Notes under the pieces: generated by a model
Database searches by the model: none
The model's input: only the letters and a program-made list of their open reading frames with translations
Told to the model about the DNA's origin: nothing
Shown: positions 16,976-27,076 of the stretch, in pieces
Numbering within the stretch: the stretch's first letter is position 1
Layout: the number at the start of each line of letters is the position of its first letter
Source: Candidatus Stahliibacteriota bacterium
Lineage (GTDB): Bacteria > Hydrothermota > UBA3073 > JACQXS01
Direction of reading: 5' to 3'
DNA: 40,995 nt
Assembly (NCBI GenBank): GCA_016208615.1
Contig: JACQXS010000005.1
Coordinates: 1-40,995 of the forward strand
Made by a program: the position numbers and the translations under genes

Positions 16976-18359
16976 ATGAAAAAATTGGTAAATATAGCCC
17001 TTTTATTGGTGCCATTGAATTTATTGGGTGACTGGATATTGCAGCAGAGCGGGGTTAATAACACACTTGGCGATGTGTATTTTGTAGATAAGCTCCACGG
17101 ATGGATAGCTGCTGGTAGTGATGATAGTGGTAGGGGACTAATACTTTGCACAACAGACGGAGGTAAGAATTGGGAGAAGGTATATACAGATTCAGGCTGG
17201 GTCGGATGTATTGGATTTTTTGACTCACTTGAAGGCTGGGCTGGTGGTGGAGGACCAACCCATTATTGATTCTTCATCTCAGTCTCAACGGACTCCTGCT
17301 GTTTTATTTCATACTACGGATGGCGGGCATACATGGAACGAGGACAAGAGTATGAATTCTCATAAATTTAGCCCCTCTTCATCTCTTATTTCTCATTATG
17401 ATGACTACTATGAATCCGTAAATCGTATTCATATAGTTAATTCTATATATGGTTTTTATATGCTAAATGGGGAGTATATAGACTTTTATCATGGCATGAC
17501 TATTGAATGGATAATAGTAAATTCATTAGATGGAGTTCATTACTGGAAGGAAGATTGTTTTGTGTGCGGTAACCTTTGGGGAATAGATTTGTATTTCACT
17601 GATTCTCTGCATGGCTGGATTTTAAAAAGAGATGGAGAGTCCAATCCTTACCCGCAAGTACTTTATACCGAGAAAGGAATAGAAAGTTTAGCTGTAATTT
17701 CTGTTGTTGATTCCCCCCTCTATGTTGATGTAAGTAGAATGGATTTTATAGATAGCTTACAGGGTTGGATAATTTCTAGTAAAAAAGTTTATCATACAGT
17801 AGATGGCGGATATAACTGGGTAGCAGAATCAATTGTAGTAGTAGGAAATCTTGGTGAGATTGATTTTCTTGATTCTTTAAATGGCTGGGTATCTGGTAAT
17901 ATTGGTACTAGAGGAATTATTTTAAGGACAAGAGATGGTGGTAATAATTGGACACAGGAACTTACACCTATAACTTATTATGTGATAAGGTCTTTATATT
18001 TTGTAGACACATTAAACGGTTGGGCAGTAGGTGATAATGGCAAAATTCTACATTATACCACTGTGGGAGTGGAAGAAGATAGATTCTTCGCTGACGCTCA
18101 GAATGACAGATTAGAAGTAGAGCCAAATCTATGTAGTTCGGTAGTTAAGATTAACTATTCAGTAGATAGAGAAAAAGATATTTCATTAACTATTTATGAT
18201 GTTACGGGTAGGTTAATAGAAGTATTAGTTGATGGCAAAATAGACCAAGGGTCATATCAAATAGACTGGACTACTACTGGGTTACCACGCGGAATCTATT
18301 TTGCCAAGTTAGTAACCCCAACTCGCAAGATTACAAAGAAGCTTATTCTTACTCCTTAA
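16976..18359 (+). pseudogene. Secreted YCF48/BNR-like repeat protein with C-terminal sorting-like domain, split by a frameshift
   Basis: ORFs 16976-17269 and 17211-18359 share TTDGGKNW/TTDGGHTWN/TRDGGNNW and DSLxGW repeats; joint near 17240-17260; C-terminus YDVTGRLIEVLVDGKIDQGSYQIDWTTTGLPRGIYFAKL. Confidence 0.8.
18079..18111. repeat. agattcttcgctgacgctcagaatgacagatta element in the linker of the YCF48-like protein
   Basis: Imperfect inverted arms attct..agaat; encodes DRFFADAQNDRL. Confidence 0.6.
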
Positions 18360-20156: not shown

Positions 20157-21316
20157 TAAAAATGGGAGGGTCGAGATGAAAGGATTTAAAAGTATAATTA
20201 TAGGTATAGTGGCTATAAGTGTTCCGTTAAATGGGGCTTGGAGGATTAATACTATAGCTGGTGGTGGAGGTGATGGAATAGATGTAGGGCAGGGCAGAAA
20301 TGATGGTGCAAATCGGGTCTATGTAGTAAGTGGTAATAGTATTCGTGAATATTCATATACAGGTGGGAATTGGGGCTTTGCTGCACTTCCCTCTGGTGGT
20401 GCAGACTTTGGTTGTGGTGATGTAGTAGTTGGGAAAGGTAGGAATGATGGGATTTATCGTGTTTATGCAGGTGGAGCTTACGGTGGTATTGTTGAATTTA
20501 CATATACGGGAGGTAGTTGGAATCCAAGTGTTGTAAGTAGTAGGGGGTATATAGAATCGCTTCTTATTGGAGATGGTAGGAATGATGGACAAATGCAAGT
20601 CTATGTTCAGGTGTATGCAAATGGTGGAGTTCATGAATGCAGATGGACAGGTACGGGATGGAGCGAGTTGACCATAATGGGGTCTGATGCTACTCGTTAT
20701 CCTGCTATTGGACCCGGTAGGAATGATGGGATTAATAGATTGTATATTCCACAGAGCTTCTCTACATTGTTAGAATATACTTGGAATGGTAGTTCATATA
20801 CAGGGGGTACAATACCTATTTCGTTTGGAGAAATAGGAATGGTGTGCGTAGGCCGCGGAAGAGGGGATGGAACAAACAGAGTATATGTAACACAGGTGGG
20901 CAACTTTAAGGAACTTACCTATACTGGTAGTTGGGCATCATCTAATGGTGGAAATGGTAGTGTCTTTAGTATTTGTGTCGGTAAGCTACAGGCAGATGGA
21001 AAAGATAGAGTCTACTCTCGTAACACAAGCGATAATGTTTATGAATGTGCTTGGTCCGGAAGTAGCTGGAATACAGATAACATAGATGCTATTACTCGCG
21101 CTTCTATTGCTATTGGTGAAGGTAGAAATGATGACACAATGCGTATGTATGTGGCTGCAGGTACAAACTCTTCAGACCCATTATATGAAATTACTAATAC
21201 CAATCCGTATGTTATTGATACTACTGGGGTAGAAGAAGATAGAGGACAGAAGGCAAAAATTAGAAATTTATCCTACCCCATTTACTAAAAGCGCGACTAT
21301 AGACATAAGACTTGAG

Positions 21317-21366
21317 ACTAAAGTAGAGCAATGCTTTAGCCTTGCAAACCTAAAGGTTTGCCCTAC
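21317..21366. repeat. Compound hairpins ctaaag..ctttag and gcaaacct-aa-aggtttgc
   Basis: Direct reading; in frame within the sorting domain. Confidence 0.85.
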
Positions 21367-21421
21367 AATCTCTCTGACAATTTATGATTTAGCGGGCAGA
21401 ATAGTCAAGTCTTGGGATTTG

Positions 21422-21438
21422 TCCCGCTTCCTGCGGGA
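21422..21438. repeat. Hairpin tcccgc-ttcct-gcggga
   Basis: GC-rich palindrome in AT-rich CDS. Confidence 0.8.
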
Positions 21439-21601
21439 TCCCGATGTGGCGGGAGGATTTGGGAATTATGATTTCCACAAAGTGGTGTGGGATGCATCAG
21501 ATGCAAATGGAAATAAAGTACCACAAGGGATTTATTTTGCAAGTGTAAGAAACGGGAAGCTAAATATCTACAAGAAGTTAATTTATATGGGGAGATAAAT
21601 T

Positions 21602-22093: not shown

Positions 22094-22165
22094 GAATAAT
22101 GGATTATAATCAAATGAAATGAGATACTGCTCAAATATATAAAGTTTTGACTATCCTTCTTGTTG

Positions 22166-22226
22166 TGCGGGTCAGGGGACTCCCGCCAAGACGGGATCCC
22201 GAAGAAAGCGGGACCGCACCTACCCG
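22166..22226. repeat. Intergenic GC-rich palindromic element gtgcgggtcaggggactcccgcc...gcgggaccgcacctaccc
   Basis: Arms gtgcgggtc/gaccgcac; shares gggtcaggggac with the reverse complement of the 6340-6361 element. Confidence 0.75.
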
Positions 22227-25657: not shown

Positions 25658-27076
25658 ATGGTAATTTTAGCTTTAATTATAGGGATTATTTTCGCAGGTG
25701 TGGCTGAGGGAAGTTGGAGGGTAGTGAAAATAGGAACTTGTCCAACTACGGGAGCTGAAGAAATAGAAGTGGTGAAGGGCAGGAACGATGGTAAGAACAG
25801 AGTTTATGTTGTTACTATGGGAGGCGGTATATATGAATGGACATATTCGGGAGGAAATTGGAGTTATGAAGCAATATTTTCTGGTGCTCCAAGATTTATT
25901 CCTTTGGGAGTAGGCTATGGTAGAGGGGACAATATAAATCGCCTTTATATTGGTGAATGGGGCTACGGTGGTATTAAGGAGGCGAGCTTTTCTGGAAGTA
26001 GTTGGACAAATCAATATGTATCAAATACTGTTGGTAGTGTATTATGTGTGAGAGTTGGTGATGGCAGAGACGATAATATAATGCGTCTTTATGCAGGTGG
26101 GCAGTATTTTGGACTCTATGAATATACAAGGACAGGTAGTACTTGGAATTTAGGGATAATAGATGGTGCTCCAACAATTGGGACGCTGGATATAGGGGAT
26201 GGGAGGAATGATGGAAAAAATAGAATCTATGCCCCTGATAGATTTGGGCCTGTTTATGAATATACTTGGAGTGGCAGTTCATTTAATCAAGTGGTAATTA
26301 CTGTGCCACAACAGAACATAGTTGGGGTAGCTGTAGGGCAGGGCAGGAGTGACGAAACAAATAGAATATATGCGAGCAGAGAAAATGGACATCTATACGA
26401 ACTTACATATAGTTCAGGGATATGGCAATATGTGGATATGACACCATCCGGACCGAACAAAAGTCATTATGGGATACGGGTTGATAGAATGAGGAGCGAT
26501 GGCAAGTATCGGGTTTATACTACTACGCAGGGCGGTGCGGTTACTGAATTCAGCTGGAATGGCAGTGCTTGGAAGGATAGTGTAGTTGATGCCGTATCAG
26601 GTGCTACTGCTTGTTTGGATATAGGAGTGGGTAGAAATGATGATACATTTAGGATTTATGCTACAAATTACCAGACAGGTGGAGTATACGAATTTACTAA
26701 TACTTCTCCGTACGGAGTAGCAGAAGAAAGTCAAAACTCAAAATTCAAAACTCAAAAGTTAGAAGCGTATCCTAATCCATTTGTCCAAAGAACAGTTATT
26801 AGGGTTCAGGGATTAGGAATTAGTGAAACCCAATCCCCAATCCCCAATCTCCAATTACTAATTTATGACCTTGCCGGCAGGAGGATTAAACATTGGGATT
26901 TGGAATTTCCCGACCCGTCTCGTGTTGGGACGGGTGGGAATTGTGATTTCCACGAAGTGGTTTGGGACGGCACTGATGACTTGGCAAATAGAGTTAAAAC
27001 AGGTATTTATTGGTGTAGATTAGAAGCGGATGGAAGGATTAAAGGATATAAGAAGTTAATATTAATAGGGGGATAG
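25658..27076 (+). CDS. Secreted 7-repeat propeller protein with C-terminal FlgD/Por-like domain
   Basis: Seven GxGRxDxxxRxY repeats; LEAYPNPF...LQLLIYDLAGRRIKHWDL...VVWDGTDDLANRVKTGIYWCRLE. Confidence 0.85.
   Translation: MVILALIIGIIFAGVAEGSWRVVKIGTCPTTGAEEIEVVKGRNDGKNRVYVVTMGGGIYEWTYSGGNWSYEAIFSGAPRFIPLGVGYGRGDNINRLYIGEWGYGGIKEASFSGSSWTNQYVSNTVGSVLCVRVGDGRDDNIMRLYAGGQYFGLYEYTRTGSTWNLGIIDGAPTIGTLDIGDGRNDGKNRIYAPDRFGPVYEYTWSGSSFNQVVITVPQQNIVGVAVGQGRSDETNRIYASRENGHLYELTYSSGIWQYVDMTPSGPNKSHYGIRVDRMRSDGKYRVYTTTQGGAVTEFSWNGSAWKDSVVDAVSGATACLDIGVGRNDDTFRIYATNYQTGGVYEFTNTSPYGVAEESQNSKFKTQKLEAYPNPFVQRTVIRVQGLGISETQSPIPNLQLLIYDLAGRRIKHWDLEFPDPSRVGTGGNCDFHEVVWDGTDDLANRVKTGIYWCRLEADGRIKGYKKLILIGG
26728..26941. 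repeat. Three repeat-derived insertions in the propeller sorting domain
   Basis: agtcaaaactcaaaattcaaaactcaaaa (~26728-26757), attaggaattag...ccaattactaattt (~26814-26867), acccgtc...gacgggt (26913-26935). Confidence 0.6.

Follow-up and report, generated by a model that had tools for sequence, protein, structure and literature searches.

The window, a stretch of 40,995 nucleotides, is contig C3 of a fragmented MAG (2.12 Mb in 126 contigs, 83% complete) and carries two paralogous propeller genes with C-terminal sorting domains, both of which hold inserts at two loops, together with an intergenic composite element. The features, with the evidence for each, are as follows.

21233–21595, plus strand: T9SS type A sorting domain, C-terminal, 121 aa (TIGR04183 and PF18962)
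21323–21366, no strand assigned: loop 1 insert, family A, a GTAG-tagged REP head-to-head dimer (genome matches, mapped units, pattern control)
21422–21454, minus strand: loop 2 insert, 33-nt unit of family B (BLAST matches, mapped copies, +33 nt relative to the empty allele)
22165–22225, no strand assigned: intergenic composite, GTAG-REP 'D' with a nested 33-nt family B unit at 22181–22213 (comparison of D copies)
25658–27076, plus strand: paralogous propeller protein, intact, sorting domain at ~26717–27073 (family search, AF2 model, Foldseek)
~26810–26862, plus strand: paralog loop 1, a run of CCCAATC-type heptamers (sequence, flank alignment)
26909–26935, minus strand: paralog loop 2, 27-nt unit of family C (BLAST, boundaries from 29 copies, +27 nt relative to the empty allele)

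The domain at 21233–21595 passes both family cut-offs and so belongs to the T9SS type A sorting domains (TIGR04183, 27.1 bits with a cut-off of 23; PF18962, 28.7 bits with a cut-off of 27). The propeller ORF upstream of it, 20176–21288, had been read as one protein with the sorting domain, but the two are in different frames, with the shift at ~21233–21262, and thus form no single continuous ORF in the present assembly. The site of the shift lies in a heptamer-like tract (21220–21275, GATAGAG GACAGAA GGCAAAA ATTAGAA). A change of one 7-nt unit in the length of this tract would swap the frame, so that the shift may reflect slippage, an assembly error or genuine decay. The paralog's sorting domain scores under the family cut-off, and its assignment to the T9SS C-terminal-domain fold comes from its AlphaFold2 model (mean pLDDT 72.8, from an input alignment of four sequences only), whose best Foldseek match was the C-terminal domain of the T9SS protein PorU (6za2, E 3e-4). 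The low-confidence internal segments of the model, 35–38 and 71–75, fall within both inserts and between strands, and the model puts both in predicted disordered inter-strand loops.

Different elements at loop 2 and loop 1

An earlier reading of the DNA, made from the sequence only, had reported that extra sequence sits at the same two loops in both paralogs and differs between them, and the insert sequences that it described are indeed present where it placed them. For loop 2 the comparison can be made between identical flanks of related sorting domains. The segment between them is 49 nt in an empty allele (paralog C9:5215), 76 nt where family C is present (the window at 26.9 kb, C122 and C18) and 82 nt where family B is present (the window at 21.4 kb and C106), so that the insertions measure exactly 27 nt (C) and 33 nt (B), the precise breakpoints being ambiguous by a few bases because of the heptamer tracts around the site. 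Target duplication is absent at the loop 2 insertions of both B and C. The family B insert at 21422–21454, TCCCGCTTCCTGCGGGATCCCGATGTGGCGGGA, reads as (L)SRFLRDPDVAG(G), and the family C insert at 26909–26935, CCCGACCCGTCTCGTGTTGGGACGGGT, as PDPSRVGTG. At loop 2, different elements have genuinely entered one and the same ancestral loop, as the matching positions of the two inserts had suggested. The independent events are few, since the three family C alleles inherit one insertion and the two family B alleles another; to these is added a copy of C in loop 2 of C44, which is in a reading frame different from that of the other loop 2 copies.

Loop 1 of the focal domain (21323–21366, GTAGAGCAATGCTTTAGCCTTGCAAACCTAAAGGTTTGCCCTAC, read as VEQCFSLANLKVCPT) had been described as two palindromes, ctaaag/ctttag and gcaaacct, which turn out to be parts of one GTAG-REP head-to-head dimer composed of a degenerate unit (21323–21345, plus strand) and a perfect one (21344–21366, minus strand). 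Loop 1 of the paralog also carries an insert, read as GLGISETQSPIPNLQ, but as a heptamer run with imperfect self-complementarity, so that the claim of different palindromes at loop 1 in the two paralogs holds for the presence of an insert in both and is weak for the paralog's palindrome. Another paralog, C52:4282, has family B in loop 1. A GLGVSE motif resembling the loop 1 peptide of the window's intact paralog occurs in five other sorting domains.

Dispersal over unrelated conserved genes

The inserts are more than chance sequences, for each belongs to a family with copies scattered through the genome. BLAST against their own genome returned 20 matches for A, 40 for B and 12 for C, and mapping with substitutions allowed gave 21, 41 and 13 units respectively, the last a minimum, or at least 75 in total; these copy numbers come from searches of the genome in which diverged copies may be missed. 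A pattern search of 147 genomes of the phylum found A in 29 genomes and C in 10, and reversed-pattern controls for the two gave 0 matches in the same 147 genomes.

Copies within stop-to-stop ORFs of at least 120 aa (of which a few of ~125 aa may be spurious) amount to about 5 of 21 for A, 29 of 41 for B and 13 of 13 for C. Family models identify the genes that hold in-frame copies of B and C as ValS, AspS, ArgS, RecG, QueA, PrmC, GcvT, GcvPA (with two inserts), SucD and YbeY, and further hosts as a DegT aminotransferase, LplA (lipoate ligase), an LpxB-like protein, the SelA N-terminal region, an HdrA-like protein, PanC (pantoate ligase), PGM (phosphoglucomutase), an epimerase and a GT4 glycosyltransferase. 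The insert site of ValS (peptide segment NPKSQILPQMRDPEKSGTNPK) is empty in related genomes, the B and A inserts of AspS, jointly ~33 residues, are missing in 12 relatives, and a D plus B composite in QueA is missing in 11. The relative G003, conversely, has a C insert close to the C-terminus of QueA that the focal genome lacks, and its copies of C also lie in frame in apparent homoserine dehydrogenase and UvrC genes (names assigned by eye) as well as in a sorting-domain loop. No gene disruption was recognised at insertions among the conserved genes inspected.

Since the orthologous loops of QueA (L370, L372) and ValS (L014, L382, L383) also hold differing inserts across species of the family, the pattern first seen in the sorting domains is general. 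It had been presented as a property of this C-terminal domain, which cannot be upheld, as the bulk of the copies sit in housekeeping genes unrelated to it. Specificity of the elements to sorting domains is likewise ruled out by the majority of copies elsewhere.

Architecture and reading frames of the elements

Family A conforms to GTAG REPs in its terminal GTAG tag, GTAGGGCAAACCTTTAGGTTTGC, kept in all 21 mapped units, in its 6–13 bp stem and short loop, and in being mostly intergenic, ~16 of its 21 units lying in no ORF that reaches 120 aa. Family C has the CGTC tag of CGTC REPs (CGTC or TGTC in nearly all of 29 aligned copies) but not their stem, its own, CCGAC/GTCGG, being G/C from the first pair. 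These 29 copies are conserved from ACC to GGG, after which AA is preferred; two empty-site comparisons assign this AA to the target, and the base that follows a family C copy is nearly always adenine, usually as AA. Insertion into other elements was also found. The GTAG-REP 'D', whose reverse complement is GGGTAGGTGCGGGTCCCCTGACCCGCAC, is uninterrupted in L019 and L038 and carries the additional 33 nt at 22165–22225 of the window and in L030, L032 and L313, and in the relative G006 a family A hairpin has family C (+27 nt) inserted at its apex.

Stop-free frames number three of six in A and six of six in both B and C, and the coding share rises accordingly. Each of the six frames occurs among the coding copies of B (8, 6, 6, 4, 3 and 2 copies; P = 0.40 against a uniform distribution). 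Dinucleotide-shuffled B and C units were also stop-free in six frames in 71–78% of cases, so that such openness need not be an adaptation. The shuffles give no support to six-frame openness as an adaptation, and neither the multiple-of-three length nor the stop-freeness is proven to be one.

Stems and inserts across the sorting domains of the genome

The genome contains ~154 T9SS sorting domains, of which 141 were surveyed for perfect stems of at least 7 bp, with 20 synonymous-codon shuffles as control. Loop 2 had 10 stems against 4.6 expected (SD 1.7) and loop 4 had 13 against 3.8 (SD 1.6), part of the stems counted being common to related paralogs, and no excess was found in the strands of the 141 domains (19 against 17.7 expected). 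The idea that palindromes concentrate in loop 1 was rejected, with one perfect stem against 2.4 expected in the same domains. Clustering of palindromes, which the sequence-only reading had suggested for both loops, is thus found at loop 2 and not at loop 1.

Throughout the 141 domains, inserts of at least 5 aa sit between conserved strands. Sorting domains contain 9 of 75 element copies, or 6 of ~70 once common copies are collapsed by the author's judgement; against the 1.7–2.4% of the genome that these domains occupy, the collapsed count is a ~4-fold excess of events (P about 0.001–0.007). With the location between strands and the disordered loops of the AlphaFold2 model, this bears out the earlier suggestion that surface loops tolerate in-frame palindromes.

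Other repeated sequences were seen in these domains. The insert FFADAQNDR, TTCTTCGCTGACGCTCAGAATGACAGA, recurs in sorting-domain linkers or loops at 18084–18110 of the window and at C94:997, C48:3747, C10:20500 and C122:32713, and a loop 4 insert, SRRLSGSASGGK, with a perfect 8-bp stem (ATCCCGAA/TTCGGGAT), occurs at C48:5650, C107:12494, C107:15752 and C107:18815. Two more loop 4 inserts, GNPKSRYVGT and AVPINRDF, are present in three sorting domains each. Tandem heptamer tracts of the AAATCCC, GACAGAG and CCCAATC types code for many sorting-domain linkers and loops, often beside family B, and are found too in ValS (L014), RecG (L021) and ArgS (L019).

Y1 transposases

Four PF01797 (Y1, IS200-like) loci are present in the genome, and inspection by eye finds the HUH and Tyr motifs in three of them. 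Immediately upstream of the Y1_Tnp ORF at C95, on the one flank seen, is a family A head-to-head dimer. At 105 aa this ORF spans about half of the domain and appears truncated, and the neighbourhoods of the other three Y1 genes showed no A element. The C95 arrangement fits RAYT-driven REPs for family A (PMC2817692). A single copy of C occurs near a RAYT gene, at C88, which could be coincidence, and no transposase was physically linked to B; for CGTC REPs, the 2013 survey likewise gives the mover as not known (PMC3733652). The C88 Y1 transposase (L312:1126–1653) contains GADPCVCP..KGEHIGSPLQ, which resembles a sorting-domain loop insert at C97:4316.

Origin of the inserts

The dispersal, the empty sites, the unit lengths, the in-frame placement in conserved genes and the location in loops documented above are most likely the outcome of one process, in which small palindromic mobile elements of REP/RPE type, non-autonomous and dispersed through the genome, gave rise to the inserts as their copies and the survivors have been filtered into tolerant loops. 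Family A, as a GTAG-tagged REP, would plausibly be moved by the genome's IS200-like Y1 (RAYT) transposases, and B (33 nt) and C (27 nt) would insert without target duplication at a fixed length divisible by three. Because B and C are GC-rich, stop-free in six frames and a multiple of three in length, a unit that lands in a gene would lengthen the protein by 11 (B) or 9 (C) residues and neither shift nor end the frame. Insertions into helices, strands and active sites would then be purged by purifying selection and those in surface loops would persist, with a presumably near-neutral effect on the protein. Sorting domains offer several tolerant loops, and the same loop therefore gains different elements in different paralogs.

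Active attraction of the elements by sorting-domain loops, or by their heptamer or hairpin DNA, is possible but unlikely. The ~4-fold excess of independent events in sorting domains would suit it, as would the frequent occurrence of B within AAATCCC heptamers, the presence of B and C inside REP hairpins and the adenines that follow C. Many insertions, however (those of C, of A and several of B), lack heptamers and lie in ordinary genes, the heptamers may themselves belong to the B element, and loop tolerance alone predicts the same pattern. Somewhat more doubtful is that B and C are a distinct, frame-neutral class of micro-transposons, 33 and 27 nt long and stop-free in six frames, that often enter hairpins or heptamer tracts, are adapted to coding DNA and have protein loops as their main habitat.

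A different account has a few insertions spread by gene duplication or conversion among sorting domains, whose loops would then not be independent sites. Some copies do have this history: C3 and C106 have a common B, with 94% identity over 68 nt, and C3 at 26.9 kb, C18 and C122 have a common C with near-identical flanks. Yet the same loop holds different elements, an empty allele exists, C44 has its C in another frame and C52 has B in loop 1, and duplication accounts for copies inside subfamilies, not for the spread across unrelated genes, where most copies lie; as a general account it is improbable. Recruitment of the inserted peptides or hairpins for secretion (for example, sorting-domain spacing) or mRNA regulation, which would agree with their retention in several paralogs and with intragenic hairpins presumably being transcribed, is highly improbable, since metabolic enzymes and cytoplasmic tRNA synthetases carry the same elements, in six frames and as unrelated peptides.

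The mapped units, at least 75 in number, of which dozens lie within conserved genes and have clean empty sites, provide a dataset on selfish DNA that adds peptides to proteins, which could test which loops tolerate inserts and whether survival in coding DNA depends on unit length and stop content. They also caution that such inserts in MAG proteins can be real rather than assembly noise.

Comparison with known systems

In-frame palindromic insertions have been discussed chiefly for Rickettsia and Wolbachia, with REP cases scattered elsewhere. Our literature search for such elements in candidate phyla found nothing relevant, and we found no earlier report for this lineage, in which the empty sites and unit lengths are unusually clear. 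The Rickettsia RPE and Wolbachia WPE are palindromic repeats that interrupt a large number of conserved genes, unrelated to one another, without loss of frame (PMC2229807, PMC10969869, PMC4224334). B and C resemble them in entering such genes in frame at sites that are empty in orthologues, in forming several families per genome and in having host genes that are apparently not inactivated. They differ in size, the units here being 24–33 nt as against 105–146 bp for the RPE described there (PMC2229807) and ~100–150 bp for RPE and WPE together, in the reading of B in six frames and in a host lineage that has T9SS sorting domains.

GTAG- and CGTC-tagged REPs were described by Di Nocera et al. (2013), who also reported REPs lying within genes of Opitutus terrae and R. 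conorii, tRNA synthetase genes as targets, and two Xanthomonas species whose recB genes carry different REPs at roughly one position (PMC3733652). Family A resembles the GTAG REPs in its tag, in the short stem and in forming head-to-head dimers, one of which, at C95, adjoins a tyrosine transposase gene. Family C has CGTC without the stem that defines CGTC REPs, which is 8–9 bp, starts with A/T pairs and encloses a loop of 4–5 nt (PMC3733652), and B and C are mainly coding in the focal genome, whereas REPs are mostly intergenic. The GTAG dimer immediately 5′ of the Y1 gene at C95 recalls RAYT/TnpA-REP systems (PMC2817692), from which it departs in the seemingly truncated gene, the one flank seen and the lack of A at the other three Y1 genes. 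Given the precedents of RPE, WPE and intragenic REPs, the finding is thus a fresh instance of a known phenomenon.
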